Below, piece after piece: positions 1-12,684 of a DNA stretch of 38,911 nt (its first letter is position 1; every line of letters starts with the position of its first letter). The DNA is from Pseudonocardia sp. (lineage in GTDB: Bacteria; Actinomycetota; Actinomycetes; Mycobacteriales; Pseudonocardiaceae). Location: assembly GCA_029263115.1 (NCBI GenBank), contig JAJCYC010000222.1, positions 1-38,911 of the forward strand. Direction: 5' to 3'. The position numbers and the translations under genes are program-made. The notes under the pieces are model-generated. The model did no database searches. It was not told where the DNA came from and saw nothing but the letters and a program-made list of their open reading frames with translations.

Positions 1-939
1 TACCTGCTGCACGCCTACTTCGGCCGCAACGGCCGCGAGGAGGCCGAGGCGCTGCTGCAGCGCAACTCCGGTGACCTCGACTCGCCGCGCATCCTGGGCG
101 CGTTCAACGAGGAGACCCCGGACTGGCTGTCGTTCTTCATGTTCACCTACTTCACCGACCGGGACGGCAAGTACCAGCTCGGCACGCTGAAGGAGTCCGC
201 GTTCGACCCGTTGAGCCGCACCTGTGAGTTCATGCTCAAGGAGGAGGCCCACCACATGTTCGTGGGCACCACCGGGGTGGACCGGGTGGTCACCCGCACC
301 GCGGAGCTGATGCACGAGCACGACAGCGAGGAGGTCGCCACGCACGGGGGCATCCCGCTGGACCTGATCCAGCGCTACATCAACTTCCACTACTCGGTGA
401 GCCTGGACCTGTTCGGTTCCGAGCAGTCCACCAACGCGGCGAACTACTTCACCGCCGGCCTGAAGGGCCGCTGGCAGGAGGAGCGGCGCAAGGACGACCA
501 CGTGCTCACCGACGACTCGGCCGCGCTCGACGTGGTCCGTGACGGCGCCCTGACCACCGACGAGGTGCCCGCCCTGCTCGCGCTGAACCAGGACCTGCGC
601 GGTGAGTACGTCAACGACTGCCAGAGCGGCCTCAAGCGGTGGAACCGGATCCTGGAGCGGGCCGGCATCGAGCGGCGGCTGAGCCTGCCGCACACCGGCT
701 TCAACCGGGAGGTGGGACTGTTCGCCGAGCACCACATCACCCCGTCCGGCGAGCTGGTCGCCGCCGACGCCTGGGCCGCGAAGCGGGAAACCTGGCTGCC
801 CAGCGAGTCCGACAAGGCGCACGTCCGCTCGCTGATGCGCCCGGTGTACGAGCCGGGCAGGATCGCCGGCTGGATCGCCCCGCCGAGCAACGGCATCAAC
901 GGCCGGCCGGTCGACTTCGAATACGTACACCTGCCCTGA
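1..939 (+). CDS. boxB: Benzoyl-CoA 2,3-epoxidase subunit B (BoxB), 3' part
   Basis: The reading frame is open from base 1, so the 5' end lies outside the window; about 312 C-terminal residues are present. BoxB is the di-iron oxygenase that, with the reductase BoxA, epoxidises benzoyl-CoA in the aerobic CoA-dependent benzoate pathway. The carboxylate-rich motif KEEAHHMFVG (bases 238-267) is a typical iron-ligand EE-x-H segment, followed by the conserved stretches RYINFHYSVSLDLFGSEQS and NDCQSGLKRWNRILERAGI. It ends normally at TGA 937-939. No boxA or boxC is visible, and they may lie upstream. The alcohol dehydrogenase and crotonase at 10-12 kb could belong to the same catabolic theme. I am confident of the family from sequence recall. 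Confidence 0.9.
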   Translation, partial: YLLHAYFGRNGREEAEALLQRNSGDLDSPRILGAFNEETPDWLSFFMFTYFTDRDGKYQLGTLKESAFDPLSRTCEFMLKEEAHHMFVGTTGVDRVVTRTAELMHEHDSEEVATHGGIPLDLIQRYINFHYSVSLDLFGSEQSTNAANYFTAGLKGRWQEERRKDDHVLTDDSAALDVVRDGALTTDEVPALLALNQDLRGEYVNDCQSGLKRWNRILERAGIERRLSLPHTGFNREVGLFAEHHITPSGELVAADAWAAKRETWLPSESDKAHVRSLMRPVYEPGRIAGWIAPPSNGINGRPVDFEYVHLP

Positions 940-1001: not shown

Positions 1002-2645
1002 ATGAGTGACGCAGGGGCGAACCACGCCACCCCCGACACGTCTGCGGCAGGCTCCACCGCCCGCGCGTCGGTGACCGTGGCGGTGTGGACGCTGGTCAGC
1101 CGGCTGACCGGCCTGCTGCGCATCGTGGTGATCGGCGCGGTGCTCGGTCCGACGTTCTTCGCCAACTCGTTCCTGGCGGCGAACACCGTGCCCAACCAGG
1201 TCTACACGGTGATCGCCGGGCCGATCCTGGCCCTGGTCGTGGTGCCGGCGCTGGTGCGGGAGCTCGCCGGGCACGGCGCCCGGCGCTCGACCGAGCTGCT
1301 CGGCCGGGTCGCCGGATACCTGCTGAAGGCATCCGCGCTCACCGCCGCCGCCCTGGCGCTGGCCTCGCCGCTGGTCGCCTTCGCGGTCACCGCCGGGATC
1401 CCGGACGAGGCCGCCCGCGAGCGCGGCTGGCAGCTCACCGTGCTGGTGCTGGTGTTCGTCGCGCCGCAGGTGGTCTGCTACACCGTCGCCGCGCTCGGTG
1501 CCGCCGCGCAGCAGGCCCGGGGCCGGTTCGCGCTGGCCGCCGCCGCGCCGGCCCTGGAGAACATCGGGCTGATGGCCACGATGACCGCCGTCGCGCTCTG
1601 GTACGAGCCGGGTGTCGAGGTCCAGCAGGTGCCGCTGGGCATGGTGCTCGTCCTCGGCATCGGCTCCACTCTGTCGGTCGCCGTGCACGCCGCCACCCAG
1701 CTGTTCGGCGCCCACCAGGCCGGCCTGACCATCACCGTGCGCCGGGGCTGGCAGACCGACCCGGCGGCATGCGAGGTCACCCGGCGGATGCGCCAGTCGG
1801 TGGTGGTCGCGGCGTTCCCGTCGCTGTCGATGTTCGCCATGCTCGCGGTGGCGGCCACCGTGCCCGGTGGGGTGTTCGTGTTCCAGGCCGCGATGTCGGT
1901 GTACTTCGTGATCGCCGCGATCGGTGCCAAGGCGGTCACCGTGGCGGTGCTGCCCGGGATGAGCGCCGCGGGCAAGGGCGACGACCCGGCGCGCTTCGGC
2001 ACGGCCTGGCGGCAGGCGTTGAGCTTCTCACTGACCCCGAGCCTGCCGGCGATGCTGCTGCTGGTCGCGTTCGCCGAGCCGGTGGCGGCCACCCTGGCCA
2101 ACGGCGAGCTGCACGACCCGGTGATCGTCAGCGTGCTGGCGGCGTGCCTGGTGGTGTTCGCCCTGGCCCAGATCCCGGACGCGGTCACCGAGGTGACGAA
2201 GCAGGCCATGTTCGCCCGGCTGGACGTGGACGGTCCCCGGCTGGTCAGCACGGTGATGTTGGCCGTGCGGTTGGCGGTGGCGCTGGCCGCGCTGCTGCTG
2301 CCGGCCGGCTTGCCCCGGCTGGTCGGGCTGTCCTGCGCGGTGCTGCTGGCCGATGTGATCGCCGCGATCCTGTCACTGGGCATGGTGCGCCGGCGTATCC
2401 GCCCGCAACGGCTGGTCGACGGGCGACGGCTCGGCGTGATCGGGGTGGCCTCGGCGACCATGCTGCCGGCGGCGGCGGCCGGGTCCTGGCTGGTCCGGGA
2501 GAAGGTGCACGACCGGCTGCCGCAGATGATCGTCGGGATCGGGCTGGGCGGGGTCGCGGTGGTGTGCTTCGCCGTGGTGCTCGCCTGGCTCACCGGGCAG
2601 TTGCCCTCACTGGTCGACAAGCTGCGCGCCCGGCTACCCGGCTGA
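1002..2645 (+). CDS. MurJ/MviN-like lipid flippase, intact copy
   Basis: A 547-residue polytopic membrane protein of the MOP/MurJ family, which flips lipid-linked precursors such as lipid II across the membrane. The N-terminal TVAVWTLVSRLTGLLRIVVIG and the TVPNQVYTVIAGP region are typical family signatures, with about a dozen further hydrophobic segments up to the C-terminus. ATG 1002 is chosen because the family N-terminus begins soon after it and a -10-like element precedes it. It lacks the long pseudokinase tail of mycobacterial MviN, so it is probably an accessory paralogue and not the essential MurJ. It converges with the FemAB-like gene, with only 11 bases between stops. A C-terminal fragment of a second copy lies at 8265-8897. 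Its cargo is unknown. Confidence 0.85.
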   Translation: MSDAGANHATPDTSAAGSTARASVTVAVWTLVSRLTGLLRIVVIGAVLGPTFFANSFLAANTVPNQVYTVIAGPILALVVVPALVRELAGHGARRSTELLGRVAGYLLKASALTAAALALASPLVAFAVTAGIPDEAARERGWQLTVLVLVFVAPQVVCYTVAALGAAAQQARGRFALAAAAPALENIGLMATMTAVALWYEPGVEVQQVPLGMVLVLGIGSTLSVAVHAATQLFGAHQAGLTITVRRGWQTDPAACEVTRRMRQSVVVAAFPSLSMFAMLAVAATVPGGVFVFQAAMSVYFVIAAIGAKAVTVAVLPGMSAAGKGDDPARFGTAWRQALSFSLTPSLPAMLLLVAFAEPVAATLANGELHDPVIVSVLAACLVVFALAQIPDAVTEVTKQAMFARLDVDGPRLVSTVMLAVRLAVALAALLLPAGLPRLVGLSCAVLLADVIAAILSLGMVRRRIRPQRLVDGRRLGVIGVASATMLPAAAAGSWLVREKVHDRLPQMIVGIGLGGVAVVCFAVVLAWLTGQLPSLVDKLRARLPG

Positions 2646-2656
2646 CCCGCCGCGGC

Positions 2657-3823
2657 TCACCGATCGGTGCCGGAACCCCTGCCCTGCCGCATCCAGGTGC
2701 GGGCCCGGTCCATCAACGCCCGACCGCGCCTACCCGAGCCCAGCTTGTCGTAGCCGAAGCGCAGTATCGGCGAGGAGATCAGCTCGACCGCGCCCGGGTA
2801 GCGGTGCAGGTGCCCGCCGAACGCCACCTTGAACCGGTCCGGGCCGGGCAGGTTCTCCGAGCGGAAGCCCTCGGCGAGCAGGATGCCGACCGCCGACGCG
2901 GACAGCCCGCCCATGTCGAACTCGCGCAGGCCGTGTGCCTTCGCCCACTTCATCGCCTCCCAGTCCAGCGCGGAGGTGACGCTCAGCTTGGTGGCCGGGC
3001 TGGACCGGTCGAGCCCGGTGAGCCGGCAGCGCAACACCCCGCCGCAGACGGTGAACAGCTCGGCCGCGACCGGCACGCCGTCCACCTCGCCGACGAAGAT
3101 CTCCACGTGTTCACCGACGGCCAGCTCCTGGTGCAGCGCCCGCACGTAGTCCGGGGACAGCTCGGTGAACCCCTGGTGGGCGGCCGATCGGCTGATCAGG
3201 TCGGTGAGCACCGAGACGTCCGCCGGACCACCGCGCCGCACCGTCACCCCGGAGCGCTCCCACTTGCCCGTCCAACGGCGGATCCGCTTGGCCAGGCCCG
3301 CGCGCAGGGCCGCCTCGTCGGGCGACAGGTCGATCCGGACCGTGGCCGCCGGCGCCACACCGGCGGTGGACGCCCGGAACCCACACTCGAGCAGCTCGAC
3401 GGTGACATCTGCGTGGCCGTCGGTCGGCTGGACGAACAGCGCGGCGAGCCGACCGCCGGCCAGCAGCCGCATCTGTTCGGCAAGGGCCCCGACGCAGGCC
3501 GCGCGGGGGGCCTCGGGGGCGACCAGCGGGCCGTAGGAGACGTAACCGATCCGGCCGAGCAGCGGCAACGACCGCAGCAATACCTGCGCGCCGGCGAGCA
3601 GCTCGCCACCCCGCCGGGCGAACAGGTACAGCGGAGCGTAACCGGCGCGGCGCCGGACCGAGGACCAGCCGCTGAGTTGGGTCACGTCACTGCCCGGCAC
3701 CCGGGCGACCAGCTTGTCCCACTCGCCCAGCGCAGCGGGCCCCGGATCGGCTGAGACCGCGACCCTGATCGCCCGGTCAGCGGTTGACGACCGGCGGGTG
3801 GCCACCTCGTGCTCAGCCTTCAC
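2657..3823 (-). CDS. FemAB-like aminoacyl/acyl transferase (GNAT fold), intact copy
   Basis: A 388-residue soluble protein with the tandem GNAT arrangement of FemAB/FemX-type enzymes, which add amino acids (often from aminoacyl-tRNA) to peptidoglycan precursors. Relatives also occur in exopolysaccharide clusters. Recognisable segments are the N-terminal VTQLSGWSSV, the AKRIRRWTGKWERSGVTVRRG region, a GVPVAAELFTVCGGVL strand pair, and the terminal LREFDMGG plus FKVAFGGHLHRYPGAVEL. GTG 3823 is the start; TAGGGT lies 8 bases before it on this strand, as in other leaderless genes here. The acceptor and donor cannot be read from sequence; a plain N-acetyltransferase-like role is an alternative. 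A broken homologue lies at 6865-8049. Confidence 0.75.
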   Translation of the reverse strand: MKAEHEVATRRSSTADRAIRVAVSADPGPAALGEWDKLVARVPGSDVTQLSGWSSVRRRAGYAPLYLFARRGGELLAGAQVLLRSLPLLGRIGYVSYGPLVAPEAPRAACVGALAEQMRLLAGGRLAALFVQPTDGHADVTVELLECGFRASTAGVAPAATVRIDLSPDEAALRAGLAKRIRRWTGKWERSGVTVRRGGPADVSVLTDLISRSAAHQGFTELSPDYVRALHQELAVGEHVEIFVGEVDGVPVAAELFTVCGGVLRCRLTGLDRSSPATKLSVTSALDWEAMKWAKAHGLREFDMGGLSASAVGILLAEGFRSENLPGPDRFKVAFGGHLHRYPGAVELISSPILRFGYDKLGSGRRGRALMDRARTWMRQGRGSGTDR

Positions 3824-3831
3824 GATCGACG

Positions 3832-3837
3832 ACCCTA
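3832..3837 (-). promoter_or_regulatory. Probable -10 element (TAGGGT) for the FemAB-like gene
   Basis: TAGGGT on the minus strand is followed by 8 bases and GTG 3823. There is no ribosome-binding site between them, so a leaderless start is likely. Confidence 0.4.
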
Positions 3838-3913
3838 GCAGCGTCCGAACCCCTCATGACCAACGCTCCGTAACCGTGTCGGTGGACCTTGCGAGGCCGC
3901 CCCCGCCCACCCT

Positions 3914-3944
3914 GAACCATCGGACGGTTCGGACCGTTCGAACC
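3914..3944. promoter_or_regulatory. Overlapping inverted repeats upstream of the FemAB-like gene
   Basis: GAACC (3914-3918) pairs with GGTTC (3926-3930), and GGTTCG (3926-3931) pairs with CGAACC (3939-3944). The cluster of three alternating half-sites, about 90-120 bases upstream of GTG 3823, looks like an operator. No cognate regulator is adjacent. Confidence 0.3.
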
Positions 3945-4008
3945 CAGCCTGTCAGAGTCCACACGCGTCCGCCGTAGGCCCTGACGATGCCCTCGTTGGC
4001 AGCCACAT

Positions 4009-4170
4009 ACCACGTACCAGCCAGTACCCGGGAGCCGACACCTCGACCCTGGTGGCGATCTCGTAGGTGCCCCGCTTGTTCAGCATGGCAAGCTGGGCGA
4101 CCGGGTCGACGTGGTCCAGGACGAACCGCTCGTCCAGCTCCTCGCGGTGCCGGGCGACCATCTCCAGAAC
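4009..4170 (-). pseudogene. Inverted fragment of an ATP-grasp ligase gene
   Basis: Read on the minus strand, about 54 codons encode a peptide strongly similar to the intact ATP-grasp protein at 4541-5749. For example, ERFVLDHVDPVAQLAMLNKR corresponds to ERFVLDQFDPDAQLAFLNKR in the intact copy, followed by TYEIATRVEV and WLVRG. Homology stops abruptly on both sides, and none of the catalytic ATP-grasp region remains. It lies in the opposite orientation to the intact gene, so it is not a simple in-place duplication. I read it as a remnant of a second copy of the locus. The match is seen directly; the history is inference. Confidence 0.8.
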
Positions 4171-4324
4171 CACAGCCGTTGCCCACTCATGCACTGCATG
4201 GTCACCGAAGGAATCGTACTGGCACGGCCGATCACCCCCGTGACCGCGGCCCAGCGGGCGCCCTGGCTCGGGTGCGGCACCGGGGACGTGACGACTGCGG
4301 GCAGCCTTCGCGGGTGGCCAGGCT

Positions 4325-4430
4325 GAGGTGTTCTCCCGCTGCGACCCGGCTGGCCAGGCACTGTGGCAGGTGCGGGGACGCGAGCGGATCCGGCTCCACC
4401 CGACGACGACCCGTTCCTCGAGCGCGGACC
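4325..4430 (+). pseudogene. Fragment of the JmjC/cupin-like gene (remnant 1)
   Basis: The bases encode RCDPAGQALWQVRGRERIRL, matching HCDPAGQALWQVRGRKRIWL of the intact gene at 8959-9882 (about base 9367 onward). The usual iron-ligand His is replaced by Arg. About 60 bases in, the match continues (PFLE against PFLR) only after a 1-base frameshift near 4407. A weaker upstream match, MHCMVTEGI near 4190-4216 against MHTMADDI of the intact protein, suggests the remnant once extended leftward with an internal deletion. It is plainly non-functional. Confidence 0.8.
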
Positions 4431-4540
4431 CCCGTGCCCGAAACCACGACTCGAAGGGATCGGAAACACCGACTCGCCGGCAGCTCAGGACCGGCGGTCG
4501 TTACCGTGGGCGCCGACATCGACAGAAGGTGGGAACGCGC

Positions 4541-5749
4541 GTGACAGCTTCAACCTCCGAAACCCCGCGCCCGCCGGCGATCGTATGCGGCGGGCATCCG
4601 CAGGCGCTGTCTGCCGGACGCAGCCTCGCCGGGCTGGGTGTTCCGGTCTACGGCGTCGGTGTCGCACCCCAACTGCGGCTGTCCCGGGCGTTCACCCGGG
4701 TGTTCTCCCTCGGCAACAAGCAGGGTGACGGGCAGGCTCGGCTGGACTGGTTGATGGGGCCCGAGGGTGCTCTCCTGGCCGGCGCGGTCCTGCTGACGAC
4801 CGACGACGTGGCGCTCGAGATGGCGGCACTGCACCGGGACAGGTTGGCCGAGCGTTTCGTGCTGGACCAGTTCGACCCGGACGCCCAGCTGGCTTTCCTG
4901 AACAAACGGACCACCTACGAGATCGCCACCAGGGCCGAGGTGCCGACCCCCAGGTTCTGGCTGGTGCGCGGAACCGAGCAACTGCGAGCGAGGCGCTCGG
5001 AGTTCGTCTACCCGCTGCTGGTCAAGCCGCTGCTCTCGCACGAGTACCAGGCGAAGTTTCCGGGCAAGTTCCGTCGGGCCTTCTCCTTCGAACAGTTGCT
5101 GCAGCACTACGCGGCGATGGGCGAGGCCGGCATCGAGGTCATGCTGGTGGAGATGATCCCGGGCCCGGACACCCAGCTCTACAGCTACTTCACCTACCTG
5201 GACGACGACGGCGAGCCGACCTTCGACTACTGCAAGCAGGTCATCCGGCGCTTCCCACCGAGCGAGGGTTTCGCGACCTACCACGTCACCCACGACCTCG
5301 TGCCGAATCTGCGCGCCCAGGCACTGCGGCTGTTCCGCGCCGCTGGCCTGCGCGGCGTGGTCAACGTCGAGTTCAAGATGGACACCCGCGACCGGCAGCT
5401 CAAGCTGATCGAGGTCAATGCCCGTCTGGCTGGATCCAACGCACTGGTCGTGAACGCCGGCATCGACCTGGCCCAACTGATCTATCGGCGCTCGCTCGGT
5501 GAGCAGGTGAGCTGGCCGACGACCTACCCGCGGGGTCTGCGGCTGTGGACTCCCGGCGACGACGTGCGGGCCATGCTCGCCATGCGCCGGGCCGGCGAGA
5601 TCACCGTCGTTGAGTACCTGCGCAGCATCGCGTACCGGAAGCGTGTACCGATCATGCGCTGGAACGACCCTGGTCCGGCGCTGGCCAGGGCATACGGTCG
5701 GATCGGCCGGATGCTGACCGGACGGGTCCGCAAGGTCGAGCAGCGCTGA
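4541..5749 (+). CDS. ATP-grasp carboxylate-amine ligase, intact copy
   Basis: A 402-residue protein of the ATP-grasp superfamily related to COG3919/D-aspartate-ligase-like enzymes, which join a carboxylate to an amine through an acyl phosphate. Visible parts are an N-terminal Rossmann-like domain (AIVCGGHPQALSAGRSLAGL), a nucleotide-binding central part (YPLLVKPLLSHEYQ; EMIPGPDTQLYSYF), and the metal-binding end: NVEFK with E277, and IEVNAR with E291, N293 and R295. GTG 4541 is chosen because AAGGTGGGA lies just upstream; the open frame extends further left, but that part is the cupin remnant. Substrates are unknown. In this locus it could attach an amino acid to a lipid-linked precursor. A fragment of a second copy lies inverted at 4009-4170. 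Confidence 0.85.
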   Translation: MTASTSETPRPPAIVCGGHPQALSAGRSLAGLGVPVYGVGVAPQLRLSRAFTRVFSLGNKQGDGQARLDWLMGPEGALLAGAVLLTTDDVALEMAALHRDRLAERFVLDQFDPDAQLAFLNKRTTYEIATRAEVPTPRFWLVRGTEQLRARRSEFVYPLLVKPLLSHEYQAKFPGKFRRAFSFEQLLQHYAAMGEAGIEVMLVEMIPGPDTQLYSYFTYLDDDGEPTFDYCKQVIRRFPPSEGFATYHVTHDLVPNLRAQALRLFRAAGLRGVVNVEFKMDTRDRQLKLIEVNARLAGSNALVVNAGIDLAQLIYRRSLGEQVSWPTTYPRGLRLWTPGDDVRAMLAMRRAGEITVVEYLRSIAYRKRVPIMRWNDPGPALARAYGRIGRMLTGRVRKVEQR

Positions 5750-5751
5750 GA

Positions 5752-5820
5752 TCAGGACGCGGCGCCGGTGGCGGCCCGCCAGCGCGGGGGGTAGCCCCAC
5801 GAGCGCAGCACGCCGTTCCG
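5752..5820 (-). pseudogene. C-terminal fragment of the JmjC/cupin-like gene (remnant 2)
   Basis: On the minus strand the sequence encodes RNGVLRSWGYPPRWRAATGA and then a stop. This corresponds to GNGVLRSLGWTPRSRATDGA of the intact cupin-like protein (bases 9680-9739). It is opposite in orientation to the flanking ATP-grasp and 2OG oxygenase genes and lies 2 bases after the ATP-grasp stop. The upstream minus-strand sequence shows no further match, so only this tail survives. Confidence 0.7.
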
Positions 5821-5923
5821 TGAGCTCGCGCCGGTCCTGCAACCGGTTGAATCCGTCGATCCGGACAGTGTCATGCTCGTACCTCCCGTCCCGGACCCGA
5901 CCTCGAGAGTTGGAGAGCCCGCA

Positions 5924-6868
5924 TTGAGCATCGACGAGAGCCAGTCAGCAGAGCCGCTCACGGCGGACTCGGGCCGACCCGCCTCGGCGCCGGACGTCGA
6001 CCCGAGTCAGACCGAGATCGGCGCCAGTCCCGTCTTCACGCATGTCTGGGCGGATTCCGACGAGCTCAATGCGCGAATCCGGCAGTTGGTCGTGGAGCGC
6101 ATGGCGACAACGCCGGGGCTGACGCGGTCGAACTGCGGAGGGTGGCAGTCGGAGCGCGACCTGCAACGGTGGGACGACCCGGCGATCGACGTCCTTCTGG
6201 AGCGGGTACGCGCGATGGTGCGCTCCGTCGTTGTGCGGACCGTCGAGGACCCAGACGACGAGCACCTCGACGGCTGGGAAATCAGAGCGTGGGCGAACGT
6301 CAACCAACTCGACGACAGGGTTGCACCGCACGACCACGCGGGTGGGCTCAACATCTGGGCGGCCATCTACTACGTCGACTGCAAGGAGAGCTCCGCGGCG
6401 GCCACCAGCGGGATCACCAGGTTCATCGACGTGAGCGGGGTGCCGCGACCCATCCGGAACGGCACGCGGACGACGACAGGCTCGGGTAGCTCAGCCGGCC
6501 GCAACGGGGACCGGCGGTACCGGTGTGCCGATCCCGAGCGGGACTGGGAACACGATCTACAGGTCGAGCCGACACCCGGCAAGATGGTGATGTTCCCGGC
6601 GAACCTGCCCCACTACGTGACGCCGTATCTCGGCACCGAGAAGCGAATCACGATCGCGTTCAACCTGTGCCACACCAGGTTCCTCGTCTCCGACTTCGAG
6701 AGCCTGTCCTCGCGGCACCGAATGCTGTGGCGGGACTACCGAGGTCTCATGCTGATGAGGCGCGCGGCGCGGGCCAAGATACGTGACGCACTGGCCAGCG
6801 TCGTGCCGGTGGAGAGATGGCCGGCCCCGGTCCACCGCAAGCTCGTGAACACCGACTACCTCGGTTAG
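5924..6868 (+). CDS. 2OG-Fe(II) oxygenase superfamily protein (PF13759/TIGR02466-like)
   Basis: Predicted non-haem iron, 2-oxoglutarate-dependent hydroxylase of 314 residues. The double-stranded beta-helix signatures are present: WANVNQLDDRVAPHDHAGG with H136 and H138, MVMFPANLPHYVTPY with H230, and EKRITIAFN with R241 for 2-oxoglutarate. TTG 5924 is favoured because GGAGAG (5912-5917) sits at correct spacing; an in-frame ATG at 5873 has no such site and would add 17 residues. A Ser/Arg/Gly-rich insert (about residues 184-202) is unusual. Codon use looks visibly less GC3-extreme than in the surrounding genes, a hint of separate acquisition. Its stop TAG (6866-6868) overlaps the stop of the convergent FemAB pseudogene. 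The substrate is unknown; a free or tethered amino acid is plausible. Confidence 0.75.
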   Translation: MSIDESQSAEPLTADSGRPASAPDVDPSQTEIGASPVFTHVWADSDELNARIRQLVVERMATTPGLTRSNCGGWQSERDLQRWDDPAIDVLLERVRAMVRSVVVRTVEDPDDEHLDGWEIRAWANVNQLDDRVAPHDHAGGLNIWAAIYYVDCKESSAAATSGITRFIDVSGVPRPIRNGTRTTTGSGSSAGRNGDRRYRCADPERDWEHDLQVEPTPGKMVMFPANLPHYVTPYLGTEKRITIAFNLCHTRFLVSDFESLSSRHRMLWRDYRGLMLMRRAARAKIRDALASVVPVERWPAPVHRKLVNTDYLG

Positions 6869-8049
6869 TTTAGTGTTGCGAGGCACCAACTGTGCTCACC
6901 GGCGCGTTCGATCGCCAGGTCCACCGCCCGAGCCACCCGCTCCAGGTAGGCCGGCAGCCACCGTGAGGACCGCGCTCTTGGTGGCCTGGTAAAGACGGGC
7001 CTGGGCGGCGGCCGCGGGGATCCGCTCGAGGGTGAAGGTGTACACCGGTTCCTCGTGCGTGCCGAAGCCGCGCTTGAACCTGCGCAGCTCCTCGAGCTGG
7101 GAGAGTCCGAAGTCGTAGCTGCACCGGCCCTGGTCGCAGGCCGACTCGATGGCCTGCCGGTGCAGCAACTCGTTGGCTCCGGTTCCCCGGCAGCGCTGCT
7201 TGTCCATCGCCCCGCGCCAGTAGACGGTGTGCGCACCGCCGTCCAGCACGATGATGCCGGCCAACGGCTGACCGTCCTGCCGGGCCAGGTACACCGTGCA
7301 GCGGGTGCCGAGCGCCCGGGCCACCGCCTCGAGCCGGCCGCGCGGGTGCTCCCGGCGATACCGCCAGCGCATGATCTGGACCGGATAGTTGCGGTCGCGG
7401 GCCCACCGGTCGACCGAGGCGCGATACAGCTCGTCGAACGCCCCCACCAGCCGCCCCGTGCTGTCCGCCTCGATCGTCACGCCCCGGCGCTCGGCCTTGC
7501 GGGACGCCGAACGCACCTTGCTGCTGAACCGGTCCGCCCAGACCGGGTCGAACCCCCCGTGCAGGTCGAGCACATCGGAACGGCGGTCGTGGTGTGCACC
7601 GACCGGGGTACCGCCGGCCCCCAGGCCCGGGCGTCGTCCCCGCCGACCACGACCTGGGTACGCAGCCCGGCCCGGCCGACCTCGTGCACCAGCGCGCGCA
7701 GCTGGTCGGTCCGCAGCGGACCGTCCTCGGTGACGAACCCGCCGGAGGCCACCCCCAGGTTCCAGTTGTTCGGCGGCGCGGCGAAGACGCCGGGCAGCCG
7801 GGGAAGCGCGTGGCGGGGCAGCACGACCCGGCGGCCGTCGACCCGGAGCAGGAGCGTGGCATCGGTGAAGGCGCTGCCCGCCCGGATGCAGTCCGCCCAC
7901 TGCGGGGTCTTCGTCAGAGCGAGGCCGGGATCGCCCGAGGCCATCTCCAGCCAGGCCGGACGGGCGGCGTCGCCGACCGCCTCGACGGTGACCCGGTGCC
8001 CGGACGAAATCAACGATTCCAGCCCTTCGACTCGACGAACCGGCCCCAC
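6865..8049 (-). pseudogene. FemAB-like transferase gene, broken by two frameshifts
   Basis: A FemAB/GNAT-like protein is readable only by changing frame twice on the minus strand. Segment 1 (8049 to about 7585) includes TPQWADCIRAG, APPNNWNLGVASGG and WGPAVPRSVHTTT. Segment 2 (about 7575 to 6960) includes SDVLDLHGGFDPVWADRFSS, KVRSASRKAERRGV, AGIIVLDGG and SYDFGLSQLEELRRFKRGFG. Segment 3 (6957 to 6865) includes LPAYLERVARAVDLAIERAG. The two joins, near 7575-7590 and 6957-6965, each need a single-base change. It is a relative of the intact gene at 2657-3823, not a close copy. Genuine decay fits the surrounding remnants, but sequencing error cannot be excluded from sequence alone. The true start is uncertain. 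Confidence 0.75.
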
Positions 8050-8206
8050 GCCCCGGCCGAAGATCCGGCCCGGGCCCCCGCGGGGGTCAGTGACGCAGCC
8101 GTCAGACTAGATGGCGAACGTCGAGCAGCCCTGTCGCAGGGCGCGCCCCTGCCCGCTCGGCGCGCCGACGGCCCCGGAGGTCACGATGGCCCGATCGGCC
8201 GGCCCG

Positions 8207-8266
8207 ACCGGGCAGGGGCCCACCGGGCAGGGCGCCACCGGGCAGGGCGCCACCGGGCAGCGCGGG
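8207..8266 (+). repeat. 15-bp tandem repeat, four units
   Basis: Units begin ACCGGGCAG and run 8207-8221, 8222-8236, 8237-8251 and 8252-8266. Units 2 and 3 are identical; units 1 and 4 differ at a few bases. It sits exactly where the truncated MurJ copy begins to match its intact relative, so replication slippage or a recombination scar is likely. Confidence 0.85.
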
Positions 8267-8897
8267 CGACGACGCCGGATTCGCCGCCGCGTGGCGACAG
8301 TGCCTGTCCTACGCGGTGGTCGTCGGGCTTCCGCTGACCGCCCTACTGGCCGCGTTGGCCGGCCCGACCGCCGACCTGCCGGCCAACGGCGAGCTGCGCA
8401 CCGGCGAGCTCGTCGCGATGCTCGGACTGGGCCTGACGGTGATCGCGTTCGCTCAGCTGGTCGGCGGCGTGCACGATCTGGGCCGGCAGGCGTTGTTCGC
8501 CCGCCTCGACGACCGCGGCCCGCGGTTGGCCGGCTACCTGGCGCTGCTGGGCGGCGCCTCGGTGGGCTCGGCCGTCCTGCTCCTGCCGCCCGACGGTGCC
8601 CGGCTCGGCGGTCTGGCGCTGGCCATCCTCGCCGCGGAGCTCGCGGCCGCCACCACCGTGCTCGTGCGGCTGCGGCGCACCGCCATGCCGGGCGGGTTCG
8701 TCGATCGTCGGCTGCTCGCCGTCGCGCTGGCCGGGACCGTGGCCACGCTGCCGCTGCTGGCCGGCGGGCGGTGGCTGCTCGCCGACCTGGAGCCGACGCG
8801 CCTGCTCGAGCTCGGGATTCTGGCCGGCCTGGGCGCGCTGGCGCTCGCGGAGTACGCGCTGGTCCTGAAACTGTCCTGGGCAGCTCGGTCGCCCTGA
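8265..8897 (+). pseudogene. C-terminal third of a second MurJ-like gene
   Basis: The frame from about 8268 encodes DDAGFAAAWRQCLSY, matching DDPARFGTAWRQALSF of the intact MurJ-like protein. It then continues collinearly to the C-terminus (ANGELRTGELVAML; GRQALFARLDDRGPRL against KQAMFARLDVDGPRL). About 210 residues with six hydrophobic segments remain; the N-terminal two thirds are missing. Immediately upstream are a 15-bp tandem repeat and a weak out-of-frame trace of the preceding segment (EVTMARSAG near 8176-8202). No start with a good ribosome-binding site exists, so I call it a remnant. It stops 61 bases before the intact cupin-like gene. Confidence 0.75.
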
Positions 8898-8958
8898 GCG
8901 CTTCGCTATCCTGGGCGGGAGCGAGTGTCGAGTGTGCCCCCACGGAGAGGAAGTCGTC

Positions 8959-9882
8959 GTGCCACGCGTCGTGGAGAAGATCACCCCCGAGCAGCGCGAG
9001 CTGTGGGGCCGGCACACGGTCACCCTCTCGCACAACCTGCCCAGCATGGAACTGTTCTCCGACGAGTCGCTGGCCAGGCTGATCGAGACGGTCGACCCGA
9101 AGTGCATGATCATGCACACCATGGCCGACGACATCACCACCTGGAAGGTGGTGGAGCGCGGCGGCGTGCCCGGCGAGCGGGTGCTGGAGGCGATCCGCAA
9201 CGGCCGCATCTGGATCAACATGGTCGACATCCAGGAGGCCGACCCCCGCTTCCGTGAGCTGCTCGACCAGCTCTACTCGGAGTGGGAGACCGACATCCCG
9301 GGCAGTGACTACTTCAAGCGCAAGATCGGCCTGCTGATCTCCTCGCCCAACGCCAAGGTGTTCTACCACTGCGACCCGGCCGGGCAGGCCCTCTGGCAGG
9401 TCCGCGGCCGCAAGCGCATCTGGCTGTACCCGAACACCGAGCCGTTCCTGCGGCCCGCCGAACTGGAGAACGTGATTCGCAGCGTCTCCAGCGAGGAGAT
9501 CTCCTACGAGCGCTGGTACGACGAGTACGCCGAGGTGATCGACCTCGAGCCGGGCCAGGCGCTGCACTGGGCGCTGAACGGTCCGCACCGCATCGAGAAC
9601 CACGACGAGATCAACGTCTCGCTCACCAGCGAGCACTACGACCCGGCGATCCGGCGCAACTGGGCGATGAACTACGGCAACGGGGTGCTGCGCTCACTGG
9701 GGTGGACCCCACGCTCCCGGGCGACCGACGGCGCCGCGTTCTGGGCCAAGGTGGGCATCACCGCGCTGTGGCGCAAGACGATGCAGGAGAAGCAGAGCTA
9801 CAAACGGATCCCGGAGTACGTCCCCGACCCGGAGGCGCCGAACGGCGTCCGCCCGATCACGCCGGCCGCGATCAGCTCCTGA
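8959..9882 (+). CDS. JmjC/cupin-like Fe(II) oxygenase, intact copy
   Basis: A 307-residue cupin-like (JmjC-type) protein. The metal motif H137-C-D139 lies in FYHCDPAGQALWQVRGRKR, and a distal His candidate (H203 or H210) lies in GQALHWALNGPHRIENHDE; K152 or R153 downstream could bind 2-oxoglutarate. Such proteins typically hydroxylate amino-acid side chains or small molecules; substrate and co-substrate are not provable here. GTG 8959 is chosen because GGAGAGG (8944-8950) lies 8 bases upstream; an in-frame ATG at 8932 lacks this. TATCCT at 8907-8912 is a possible promoter element. Two fragments of further copies occur at 4325-4430 and 5752-5820, the best sign that this family belongs to the locus. 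Confidence 0.8.
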   Translation: MPRVVEKITPEQRELWGRHTVTLSHNLPSMELFSDESLARLIETVDPKCMIMHTMADDITTWKVVERGGVPGERVLEAIRNGRIWINMVDIQEADPRFRELLDQLYSEWETDIPGSDYFKRKIGLLISSPNAKVFYHCDPAGQALWQVRGRKRIWLYPNTEPFLRPAELENVIRSVSSEEISYERWYDEYAEVIDLEPGQALHWALNGPHRIENHDEINVSLTSEHYDPAIRRNWAMNYGNGVLRSLGWTPRSRATDGAAFWAKVGITALWRKTMQEKQSYKRIPEYVPDPEAPNGVRPITPAAISS

Positions 9883-9902
9883 GCCGGGTCGGCTCCACGA
9901 AT

Positions 9903-9921
9903 CCGGGTCGGTGTCTCCCGG
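9903..9921. terminator. Weak hairpin between convergent genes
   Basis: CCGGG (9903-9907) can pair with CCCGG (9917-9921). It lies in the 79-base gap between the cupin-like gene and the convergent alcohol dehydrogenase. With a short stem and no U-tract it is only a weak terminator candidate. Confidence 0.25.
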
Positions 9922-9961
9922 CCCAGCGGCGGCGGATCTCGACGACTGCCGGCTTCAGAGC

Positions 9962-11065
9962 TCAGTGCACCAGGACGGCCTTGACGACATCGCCCTTGTG
10001 CTGAGCCTCGATGGCCTCGTTGACCTGGCTGAACGGGAACTTGGTGATCATCTTGTCGAACGGGAACCGCCCCTCGGCGTGCAGCTGCACCAGCCGCGGG
10101 ATGAACTCGTCGGGCACCGCGTCGCCCTCGATGATCCCGTAGACCTTCACCCCGGCGACCAGCGCGCCGAACAGGCTGACGTTCACCGACGCCGTCGGGT
10201 CGGCCGGCACGCCGACCAGGCCCAGGCTGGCGTGCGGCGCCATTGCGGTGAAGGTGGACTCGATCACCGCGGGGATGCCGGTGGTGTCGAAGATGAAGTC
10301 GGCGCCCAGCTCACTGACCGCCTTGACCTGGTCGGCCAGCGCACCGTCGGCCGGGTCCAGCGCGTGCGTGGCGCCCATCTCCAGGGCCAGCTTGCGCCGG
10401 CTGACGTGCGGCTCCACCACGATGATGTTCGCGCAGCTCTGCACCACACCGCCGAGTACCGCCGACAGCCCCACCGAGCCGCCGCCCAGCACGAGCAGCG
10501 TCGACCCTTCGTCGGCGCCCATCGAGTTCATCACCGAGCCGGCGCCGGTCTGCACACCGCAGCCCAGCGGGCCGACCAGCTCCAGGTCGGCGTCGTCGGG
10601 CAGCTTGACCACGTTGTACTGAGTGGCCAGCGCGTGCGAGGCGAACGACGACTGGCCGAAGAACAGCGAACTGACGGCACCCTCGGCGGAGGAGCACGGC
10701 GAGACGCCGTCGGTCAGCCGGACGCCAGCGTAGTTCAGCGGCATGAACTGGTGACAGTAGGCCATGTCGCCCTTGGCGCAGTTGCGGCACTGGCCGCAGT
10801 AGTTGAAGGTCAGCCCGACCTTGTCGCCGGCCTTGACCTTGGTCACTCCCTCGCCGACCTCCAGCACCGTGCCTGCGCCCTCGTGACCGAGCACGGCGGG
10901 CAGCTGGAACGGGATCTGACCCTCCCGGGCGGCCAGGTCGGTGTGGCAGATGCCCACGGACTTGATCTCGACCAGCACCTCACCGGCTCGCGGGCCGTCC
11001 AGGTTCAGCGTCTCGATGGTGAACTCGGCATTCGGTTTGCGCGCGACAGCGGCGGTGATCTCCAC
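9962..11065 (-). CDS. Zinc-dependent alcohol dehydrogenase (aryl-alcohol type)
   Basis: A 367-residue medium-chain dehydrogenase. Catalytic zinc ligands are C40 in GICHTD, H61-E62 in GHEG, and a later Cys in GPLGCGVQTG. The structural zinc lobe has C90, C93, C96 and C104. The NAD fold is GGGSVGLSAV, followed by VVEPHVSRRK, whose acidic residue suggests NAD over NADP. Overall it resembles benzyl/aryl-alcohol dehydrogenases, which would suit the boxB benzoate route upstream, but the exact alcohol is unproven. GTG 11065 is preceded by GGGAG at short spacing. The crotonase gene lies upstream on the same strand, 135 bases away. Confidence 0.85.
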   Translation of the reverse strand: MEITAAVARKPNAEFTIETLNLDGPRAGEVLVEIKSVGICHTDLAAREGQIPFQLPAVLGHEGAGTVLEVGEGVTKVKAGDKVGLTFNYCGQCRNCAKGDMAYCHQFMPLNYAGVRLTDGVSPCSSAEGAVSSLFFGQSSFASHALATQYNVVKLPDDADLELVGPLGCGVQTGAGSVMNSMGADEGSTLLVLGGGSVGLSAVLGGVVQSCANIIVVEPHVSRRKLALEMGATHALDPADGALADQVKAVSELGADFIFDTTGIPAVIESTFTAMAPHASLGLVGVPADPTASVNVSLFGALVAGVKVYGIIEGDAVPDEFIPRLVQLHAEGRFPFDKMITKFPFSQVNEAIEAQHKGDVVKAVLVH

Positions 11066-11089
11066 GACACTCCCATTCGTCGTCCATGG

Positions 11090-11108
11090 GCCGGACGGCC
11101 GGTCCGGC
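11090..11108. terminator. 7-bp stem hairpin between crotonase and dehydrogenase genes
   Basis: GCCGGAC (11090-11096) pairs perfectly with GTCCGGC (11102-11108) across a 5-base loop. On the minus strand it follows the crotonase gene and precedes the dehydrogenase start by about 25 bases, so it may be a terminator or an operator. The rest of the 135-base gap shows nothing else recognisable. Confidence 0.35.
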
Positions 11109-11200
11109 GGTCAGTCTGGTGGGCGGCCGGCTGGCGCACATCGCCCGATGGGGGCGCAAACCTCCCTCCATCGCCGGATGCGCATGGGTGAGCGGGCGAC

Positions 11201-12028
11201 TCAGTCCCGGTAGCTGCCCGGCCGCTTCTCCCGGTAGGCGGCCAGCGCCTCGTCCAGGTCGGCCGAGGCCAGCATCCCGCCGTTCCAGGTGGCGATCTGC
11301 TCCAGACCGTCGGCCACGCTGTGGTCGCGGGCGTAGGTGATGGCCTGCTTCGTCCCGCGCATCGCCAGCGGCGACTTCGCGGCCAGTTCGCGGGCAATCT
11401 CCTGGACGCCCCCGGCGAGCTCCTCAGGGGTGTCGAAGCACCGGTTGACCAGGCGCAGCTCGGCCGCCTCCGGGCCGGACACCGACCGGCAGGTGTAGGC
11501 CAGCTCCCGGGCCACCCCCTCACCGACGATCCGCGGCAGCCGTTGCAGCACCCCCACGTCGGCGGCGATGCCCATGTCCACCTCCTTGAGCACGAACTGG
11601 GCGTCCGCCGAGGCGTAGCGCAGGTCGCAGGCCACCGCGAGGTCGAGCCCGGCACCGATGCAGAACCCCTGCACCGCGGCCAGCACCGGCTTGCGGCACC
11701 GCTCGAACGAGGTCATCACCTCCTGCAGGTCGAGGATGATCCGGCGAATCTGCTCGCTGGCCCGCCCGGCGCAGGTGTCGCCGCTGTCGCCGCGCAGGGC
11801 AAGGAACTCGTCGAGCATGCCGATGTCGACCCCGGCGCAGAAGTGCGCGCCCTCGCCGCCGAGCACCACCACCCGCGCGGACGGATCGGCGTCCAGCGCG
11901 TACGCGGCCTCGCGCAGCTCGGACCACAGCTCACGACTCAATGCGTTGGCCCGCTTCGGCCGGTTCAACCGCAGGTTCGCGACGCCGGCGTCGACGGACA
12001 CCGTCAGGTGCTGGAGATCGAGGTTCAC
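11201..12028 (-). CDS. Enoyl-CoA hydratase/isomerase family, dienoyl-CoA isomerase-like
   Basis: A 275-residue crotonase-fold protein. The oxyanion-hole elements are GEGAHFCAGVDIGML and VQGFCIGAGLDLAVACDLRYA. The segment KEVDMGIAADVGVLQRLPRI closely resembles delta(3,5)-delta(2,4)-dienoyl-CoA isomerase (ECH1), including the catalytic acidic residues in DLRYA and EVD..AAD. It would shift double bonds in dienoyl-CoA during unsaturated fatty-acid or ring-cleavage product oxidation. GTG 12028 fits the family N-terminus; the open frame further upstream is shadow. A perfect 8-bp inverted repeat abuts this start codon, so there is no room for a normal ribosome-binding site. Confidence 0.8.
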   Translation of the reverse strand: MNLDLQHLTVSVDAGVANLRLNRPKRANALSRELWSELREAAYALDADPSARVVVLGGEGAHFCAGVDIGMLDEFLALRGDSGDTCAGRASEQIRRIILDLQEVMTSFERCRKPVLAAVQGFCIGAGLDLAVACDLRYASADAQFVLKEVDMGIAADVGVLQRLPRIVGEGVARELAYTCRSVSGPEAAELRLVNRCFDTPEELAGGVQEIARELAAKSPLAMRGTKQAITYARDHSVADGLEQIATWNGGMLASADLDEALAAYREKRPGSYRD

Positions 12029-12049
12029 CGGACGTGCATAACACGTCCG
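12029..12049. promoter_or_regulatory. Perfect inverted repeat abutting the crotonase start codon
   Basis: CGGACGTG (12029-12036), a 5-base spacer, then CACGTCCG (12042-12049). It touches the GTG at 12028, so a protein bound here would cover the transcription or translation start. It looks like a TetR-type operator, but no regulator gene is adjacent. Confidence 0.5.
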
Positions 12050-12177
12050 CGCCGGACCCGCCGCTCCGGCCTCTTCTCGAGCCCGCGCCGGATCACGTCC
12101 GGTGGGCCCGGCGACAGCACGACGGTGCCGCCCCGGCGCGTCCGGCACGGGTGAGCAGGCCGGTCCACAATGCTCCC

Positions 12178-12684
12178 ATGGAAGCTCGGGAACGGGACCC
12201 GGACGGCCGCGCCCGCAACAGCCGACCCAGGGACGCGACCGGACGTCCGATGCACCGGGGTGCCACCGGGGTACCCCGCGTACCCGAGGACCTGGCACTG
12301 GGCCCGGACGCCACGCTGACCGAGGCACAGCGGCTGCTGGACGCCGACCTGCCGTTCCAGGCACACGAGGTGCTCGAGGCCGAGTGGAAGGCGGCGGCGG
12401 CCCACGAGCGGGATCTCTGGCGGGGCTTGGCACAGCTCGCGGTGGGCCTCACGCACGCCCAGCGGGGCAACGCTGTCGGCGCCGCTGCGCTGCTCGTGCG
12501 CGGCGCCGAGCGGATCGCGCCGTTCATCCAGTGGCGGCCGCACGGGGTTGACGCGGCCGGGTTGGCCGCGCACGCCACCACGCTGGCTGCCCGGATCAGC
12601 AGTCAGGGACCTGACGGCCTCTCCGAGGCCGAACGCCGCCCCCGCCTGACCACGGGCGATCCCGGCCGCGCCTCGGGGTCGTGA
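12178..12684 (+). CDS. DUF309 family protein
   Basis: A 168-residue protein whose central part, DLPFQAHEVLEAEWKAA followed by RDLWRGLAQLAVGLTHAQRG, is the signature of DUF309 (PF03745), a small all-helical family of unknown function with a conserved H-E-x2-E motif. The first 45 residues are Arg-rich and not conserved. ATG 12178 follows a CACAAT hexamer by 6 bases, consistent with a leaderless promoter. It is divergent from the crotonase gene and convergent with the desaturase operon. Confidence 0.75.
   Translation: MEARERDPDGRARNSRPRDATGRPMHRGATGVPRVPEDLALGPDATLTEAQRLLDADLPFQAHEVLEAEWKAAAAHERDLWRGLAQLAVGLTHAQRGNAVGAAALLVRGAERIAPFIQWRPHGVDAAGLAAHATTLAARISSQGPDGLSEAERRPRLTTGDPGRASGS

Follow-up and report, generated by a model that had tools for sequence, protein, structure and literature searches.

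Gene content of the locus

The window analysed here is the whole 38,911-base contig JAJCYC010000222.1 of Pseudonocardia sp., part of a draft genome of 377 contigs (5.1 Mb, 94.55% complete). Close to its start lies a cassette of MurJ-like, FemAB-like, ATP-grasp and cupin genes in which a full-length and a broken member of each family are found, together with an intact 2-oxoglutarate (2OG)-Fe(II) oxygenase (Table 1; broken genes carry the prefix psi). A first-pass annotation had described this arrangement as a second copy of the cassette that decayed. Decay of extra copies and rearrangement are indeed apparent at the locus, but a single event duplicating the whole cassette is not. The relatives compared were P. 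eucalypti DSM 45351 (G012), P. spinosispora DSM 44797 (G010) and P. acaciae DSM 45401. Remnants were sought in the window by within-window tblastn, a repeat search and dinucleotide shuffles (300 each; 60 for FemAB and for one of the 2OG tests), and genes at the relatives' loci and elsewhere in the own genome were called with a simple codon-position script and no published gene finder.

Table 1. Genes and gene remnants of the cassette region and its right flank.
Feature	Positions	Strand	Description
MurJ1	1002..2645	+	Intact MurJ-like flippase of the ancestral cassette; Pfam MurJ, E-value 5e-31
FemAB1	2657..3823	-	Intact FemAB/GNAT-type transferase of the ancestral cassette; Pfam Acetyltransf_6 and FemAB
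psiATP-grasp	4009..4173	-	Scrap of 55 codons at the probable ancestral ATP-grasp position; order and strand match P. acaciae
psicupin, middle piece	4319..4408	+	Probable ancestral cupin1 position; invariant histidine of the HxD motif replaced
Intact ATP-grasp ligase	4541..5749	+	Displaced; strand opposite to the scrap; ATPgrasp_Ter 34.6 bits (cut-off 29.1)
psicupin, C-terminal piece	5758..5817	-	Inverted relative to the middle piece
2OG-Fe(II) oxygenase	5873..6868	+	Intact; 2OG-FeII_Oxy_5 50.2 bits (cut-off 27)
psiFemAB2	6896..8049	-	Near full-length, FemAB-like, one supported frameshift; subfamily other than FemAB1
psiMurJ2	8265..8897	+	C-terminal third of a MurJ-like gene of a type seen in polysaccharide loci
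Intact cupin (Cupin_8-like)	8932..9882	+	Displaced copy of cupin1; Cupin_8 27.3 bits (cut-off 27.4)
Right flank	9962..12684	.	Zn alcohol dehydrogenase (-), enoyl-CoA hydratase (-), DUF309 (+); Pfam

MurJ1 and FemAB1 have counterparts in the cassettes of two relatives. MurJ1 is 70% identical to the gene of P. acaciae and 60% to that of P. eucalypti, grouping with both in the tree (support 97/95), and FemAB1 shares 67-68% identity with the genes of these species, all being grouped with support of 100/99. The P. acaciae cassette (L105) runs MurJ(+), FemAB(-), IPMDH-like(-), ATP-grasp(-), cupin1(+), cupin2(+). The window reads MurJ1(+), FemAB1(-), psiATP-grasp(-), psicupin(+), with the IPMDH gene missing in between. 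The cassette of P. eucalypti (L104/L010) contains the same genes in a somewhat different order, plus an RraA-like gene, and its ATP-grasp and cupin1 genes are placed head-to-head. As the two scraps of the window occupy the places that ATP-grasp and cupin1 hold in P. acaciae, these are probably the ancestral positions, and the full-length ATP-grasp and cupin genes would be displaced copies. The ancestral order is deduced from two relatives, one of which has the full MurJ-FemAB-ATP-grasp-cupin order. The RraA-like gene is full length in P. eucalypti only. In P. acaciae a 36-residue RraA-like scrap (L105, 9768-9875) lies between ATP-grasp and cupin1, which suggests that the cassette has eroded in another species too.

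Remnants of the ATP-grasp and cupin genes

The ATP-grasp scrap, which the earlier annotation had located at 4009-4170, is real. It aligns to residues 89-143 of the intact ligase with 71% amino acid identity over 55 residues (tblastn E-value 1e-18), and the DNA is 80% identical over 164 nucleotides. The best score was 192, against a shuffle maximum of 65, and was reached by none of 300 shuffles. The intact ligase itself is 61% identical to that of P. acaciae and 54% to that of P. eucalypti. In the tree the scrap, with its 55 residues, pairs with the intact gene as its sister (97/94), and the genes of P. acaciae and P. eucalypti are their neighbours. Base differences point the same way: the scrap differs from the intact gene at 34 of 165 bases and from the genes of the two relatives at 42-50, those two differing mutually at 36. 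The surviving ATP-grasp gene looks like a duplicate arisen within the lineage rather than a foreign gene.

The cupin fragments, previously noted at 4325-4430 and 5752-5820, were likewise recovered. The middle piece corresponds to residues 140-169 of the intact cupin, with 73% amino acid identity over 30 residues (E-value 2e-10), and the C-terminal piece to residues 250-269, with 70% over 20 residues. The latter match has a tblastn E-value of 0.037 when taken alone, and its blastn E-values are 4e-8 to the intact cupin and 8e-11 to the P. eucalypti orthologue. Its score of 65 compares with a shuffle maximum of 43, and neither piece was equalled in 300 shuffles. The C-terminal piece is nevertheless the weakest of the remnants, since in a rougher BLAST control, which took in every gap and every query, one of 20 simple shuffles matched its score. 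The tree places psicupin inside the cupin1 clade (98/96), the branching within the clade not being resolved. Judged by sequence only, neither scrap can function. The ATP-grasp scrap retains 55 of 401 residues, and psicupin retains 30+20 of 316 and has moreover lost the histidine of the HxD motif, which is a metal ligand in cupins.

The intact cupin, whose true start may lie a few codons downstream of 8932, shares 71-75% identity with the cupin1 genes of the relatives P. acaciae and P. eucalypti. It represents the only family of the window without another full copy in the own genome. A scan of the genome_contigs set with the cupin as sole query confirmed none of 37 stretches, and a cupin profile run on 397 genomes of the order (an even draw from a larger group) matched, at an E-value of 1e-20, only the window's own genome. 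Relatives of the cupin at 40-52% identity are present in alphaproteobacteria such as Mesorhizobium, Aquamicrobium, Rhodobiaceae and others (L110, L111, L112, L113, L114, L115, L117), which shows that cupins of this family also occur independently of the cassette.

The FemAB and MurJ remnants belong to other subfamilies

The FemAB-like piece, reported before at 6865-8049 with two frameshifts, is a broken gene at 6896-8049, and one frameshift suffices to account for it. Compared in two frames with a full-length homologue of P. spinosispora (G010 contig C22), it is 57% identical in its C-terminal part and 48% in its N-terminal part, and the homologue places the frameshift between 7552 and 7609. 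A further frameshift at the 3' end is unneeded, because the P. spinosispora homologue stops about ten residues further on. Nor did the gene arise by recent copying of the intact one. Direct comparison of psiFemAB2 with FemAB1 by tblastn gave no match at an E-value below 1, and three of 60 shuffles scored as high. In the FemAB tree psiFemAB2 joins the P. spinosispora gene (100/99), far from FemAB1. That tree comprises 20 rows, two of which (win_fem2C and G033_L089) fill less than half of the columns; matches without a locus were left out, and five of the 14 automatically tried loci (L087, L088, L090, L091, L029) were excluded for want of a gene call. FemAB1 and psiFemAB2 match the same Pfam domain, and a third FemAB matches both weakly (E-values 5e-6 and 7e-5). 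Therefore, the two are considered distant paralogues. Neither reaches the 260.35-bit cut-off of TIGR03019, the model of the FemAB family associated with XrtA/PEP-CTERM: FemAB1 scores 23.9 and the C-terminal part of psiFemAB2 35.8.

The MurJ-like remnant at 8265-8897 is both real and similar to MurJ1, its match to the last third of that protein having 40% identity, an E-value of 5e-22 and no equal in 300 shuffles, but it falls outside the MurJ1 clade. Roughly the first 320-340 residues are gone, and what remains corresponds to residues 338-510 of the 541 of a P. spinosispora MurJ-like protein, at 56% identity. In a tree of 14 rows, from which the outgroup L035 was excluded, the six-row clade of MurJ1 (100/100) does not include psiMurJ2, which groups with flippases of other loci at 82/98, below firm support. 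To judge from these comparisons psiMurJ2 is an older paralogue and not a copy of MurJ1. Directly before its truncated end, at 8201-8260, there is a G+C-rich tandem repeat with a period of 15 bases.

Hence, the expectation that each remnant resembles its intact partner is borne out for ATP-grasp, cupin and MurJ and fails for FemAB. This unequal kinship bears directly on the proposal that one event copied a four-family cassette, that the copy decayed and that selection left one intact member of each family. The proposal accommodates the fact that, in a span of 9 kb, four families are each represented by an intact and by a broken gene. A single duplication does not, however, explain four remnants whose divergences run from 80% nucleotide identity to no detectable direct similarity. 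Only the ATP-grasp remnant is sister to its partner, while those of MurJ and FemAB lie in other clades, closer to genes of other loci than to their counterparts in the window. In addition, the genome has further long reading frames of the MurJ-like, ATP-grasp and 2OG types at other places, and the relatives' IPMDH and cupin2 were not found here. Given the FemAB and MurJ trees, the shuffles and the unequal divergence, the single duplication was rejected as highly improbable.

Genes of the relatives that were not found

The absence of any 2OG remnant, noted already in the first reading of the sequence, is upheld by the two gaps tested, where 192 of 300 and 35 of 60 shuffles reached the real score. 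The oxygenase was not seen in the cassettes of P. acaciae or P. eucalypti. It is 57% identical to a copy on contig C216 of the own genome and 56% to a P. eucalypti copy at another locus, and it could be aligned over its full length. The only own-genome match to IPMDH has 39% identity, against 72% between P. acaciae and P. eucalypti. No RraA match was found in the own genome, an empty search that proves little, and cupin2 was seen neither in the window nor in the own genome. With IPMDH and cupin2 (both present in two of two relatives) and RraA not found here, erosion seems to have reached the unit itself. The idea that selection had left one intact copy of each gene is weakened accordingly, because the relatives' IPMDH-like, second cupin and RraA-like genes were not found among the survivors.

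History of the locus

The history that we favour, with a probability of about 0.68, is that of a worn Pseudonocardia cassette shaped by gene-by-gene duplication or displacement with decay, to which two broken envelope-type genes of other subfamilies were added. The head-to-head ATP-grasp/cupin pair would have been duplicated in tandem, or a close homologue would have arrived, and the original pair would then have decayed. An inversion of about 4410-5820 would have turned the surviving ATP-grasp gene and left the cupin scrap in two pieces of opposite orientation. When this segment is turned back on paper, the cupin pieces fall into line as a single cupin that lacks about 80 residues in between, and the intact ATP-grasp gene acquires the strand of the scrap. 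The 2OG oxygenase, FemAB2 and MurJ2 would have come from other envelope loci and settled between the second ATP-grasp gene and its cupin, and two of these arrivals, FemAB2 and MurJ2, would subsequently have broken.

The ATP-grasp and cupin genes allow a second history, which overlaps the first: the full-length ATP-grasp and cupin genes would have come from another Pseudonocardia, and the native copies would have decayed in place. The scraps do stand at the native places, and psicupin has diverged from the intact cupin about as much as it has from the cupin1 genes of other species. The sister relationship of the two ATP-grasp copies argues against such xenologous displacement, for the 55 residues compared, and we regard it as a minority possibility. 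The process would resemble the displacement in situ, or xenologous gene displacement, of Omelchenko et al. 2003 (as cited in the parts of PMC1274311 and PMC5867893 that were available), in that a gene cluster loses its ancestral copy to a homologue that takes its place. Unlike the cases described there, the window keeps scraps of the ancestral genes, with the survivors beside them and the ATP-grasp gene on the other strand.

Several observations weigh against the favoured history. The sister pairing of the ATP-grasp copies depends on 55 residues, and the inversion on a cupin scrap of 20 amino acids. The 90 bases of psicupin differ from the intact cupin at 21 positions, from the P. eucalypti gene at 18 and from the P. 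acaciae gene at 21, so that for the cupin duplication and arrival of a gene are indistinguishable. No scrap of IPMDH was detected in the window gaps, where 25 of 300 shuffles reached the real score, nor any of RraA (215 of 300) or cupin2 (286 of 300). No family of glycosyltransferase type was present among the scanned cassette genes, and a role in glycan synthesis hence relies on association with more distant homologues. The ratio pN/pS of the broken MurJ2 and FemAB2 genes, 0.65-0.83, is not clearly apart from that of the intact genes, 0.51-0.70 in five comparisons, a range that means fewer amino-acid than silent changes per site. For the scraps compared with their intact copies the ratio is 0.43 (ATP-grasp, 55 codons) and 0.27 (cupin, 30 codons). 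Finally, in a draft of so many contigs the frameshift of FemAB2 could have come from faulty assembly. Part of the damage would then be technical and FemAB2 a working gene misread in sequencing or assembly, which agrees with its one supported frameshift and with a third-position G+C of 0.94 in both of its parts. However, no single base error accounts for the loss of more than 300 residues from the adjoining MurJ2, and we think a technical origin unlikely.

Related copies and decay at other loci

That exactly one intact copy of each family exists, as had been supposed, is true inside the window and not genome-wide. The own genome has other MurJ-like genes on contigs C83, C295 and C269, other ATP-grasp genes on C300, C295, C83 and C320, and a 2OG gene on C216. 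It further contains, on C295, a FemAB1-like gene truncated where the contig stops, as well as a fragment of a FemAB gene on C300 and a more distant FemAB on C41. On C295 (L074) the MurJ1-like and FemAB1-like genes have an intact ATP-grasp gene next to them. A second ATP-grasp copy there, decayed and matching in two frames at 76% and 52% identity, lies beside a UDP-sugar dehydrogenase; the coordinates noted for this intact and decayed case are 2622-3857 and 5658-6102. The window (71%) and C295 (76%, in the better piece) thus each pair a full-length with a decayed ATP-grasp gene. It may be on this account, and we suggest it as a rather doubtful possibility, that the ATP-grasp ligase of flippase/FemAB cassettes is a hot spot of turnover, the amide-forming step being repeatedly duplicated and replaced. 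If so, the chemistry of the surface polymer would change while flippase and transferase stay.

Decayed copies were surveyed with genes of at least 150 amino acids as queries and an E-value cut-off of 1e-5, the window being represented by its first 20,000 bases. Two of eight own-genome stretches contained a decayed copy of an intact cassette gene, against none of 21 stretches of relatives. The count leaves out gene fragments of other kinds in L069 and L127, and the relatives' stretches include two overlapping pairs (L065/L014 and L080/L081, from two contigs). Broken genes of the cassette families without an intact partner were nevertheless encountered in relatives, namely a 2OG gene in two frames (G019) and a FemAB gene in two pieces (P. 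eucalypti C5), as were FemAB matches with one internal stop (P. eucalypti C6 and P. spinosispora C6). Decay of these families is, then, not special to this genome. At 8793-12283 of the P. eucalypti locus L069 two tandem 2OG oxygenases adjoin a MurJ-like gene of the MurJ2 group, and some of the neighbours resemble insertion-sequence genes by eye. The 2OG/MurJ2 part of the window may have come from a locus of this type.

Possible function and relation to known systems

The odds are about even that the surviving genes serve the amide-type decoration and the export of a lipid-linked surface polymer. The ATP-grasp ligase would introduce an amide into a building block, either a sugar or an amino acid, FemAB1 would transfer an aminoacyl-type group, the cupin and the 2OG oxygenase would hydroxylate, and the MurJ-like carrier would flip the lipid-linked product towards the cell surface. 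One P. spinosispora locus contains more distant homologues of MurJ1 (46%), FemAB1 (45%) and ATP-grasp (28%), and holds also a sugar transferase, a polysaccharide deacetylase, a UDP-glucose/GDP-mannose dehydrogenase and a DegT aminotransferase.

According to the part of PMC11800379 available, there is precedent for the amidation of capsular glucuronic acid by an ATP-grasp domain. The C-terminal domain of Cj1438, from a capsule locus of C. jejuni, is like the ligase of the window in being an ATP-grasp ligase of a surface-polymer locus. It differs in that a TupA-like domain is there fused to a glycosyltransferase (PMC11800379, same part), while the window encodes a separate protein that matches other ATP-grasp models. 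The MurJ1 protein belongs to the superfamily of the lipid II flippase MurJ (TIGR01695) and covers the Pfam MurJ model over most of its length. It scores 122.5 bits with TIGR01695, below the equivalog cut-off of 235.55, and several paralogues occur in one genome.

No description of a MurJ/FemAB/IPMDH/ATP-grasp/cupin cassette in Pseudonocardia was found in the literature searched; PMC12419801, in the part available, concerns other operons, and PMC4990322 deals with Wzk, a flippase of the ABC type. The kind of evolution, duplication or displacement with decay, is already known, and it is the cassette that was not found described. The locus appears to have caught a gene-by-gene turnover half-way, the probable ancestral scraps lying beside their replacements and the relatives supplying the original order, and it corrects the natural but unsupported reading of one decayed cassette. 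If the pattern seen for ATP-grasp were wider, it would reveal the enzyme that, within a surface-polymer pathway, evolves through being replaced.

Flanking genes

Immediately left of the cassette, window positions 1-939 are occupied by a frame for a BoxB-type benzoyl-CoA epoxidase that is open to the contig start. It matches TIGR03225 with an E-value of 1e-110 and 370.8 bits, below the equivalog cut-off of 499.1. The genes of the right flank recur in the neighbourhoods of P. eucalypti and P. spinosispora, with 70-75% identity for the alcohol dehydrogenase and 70-73% for the enoyl-CoA hydratase, and the DUF309 gene is 65% identical in P. eucalypti.

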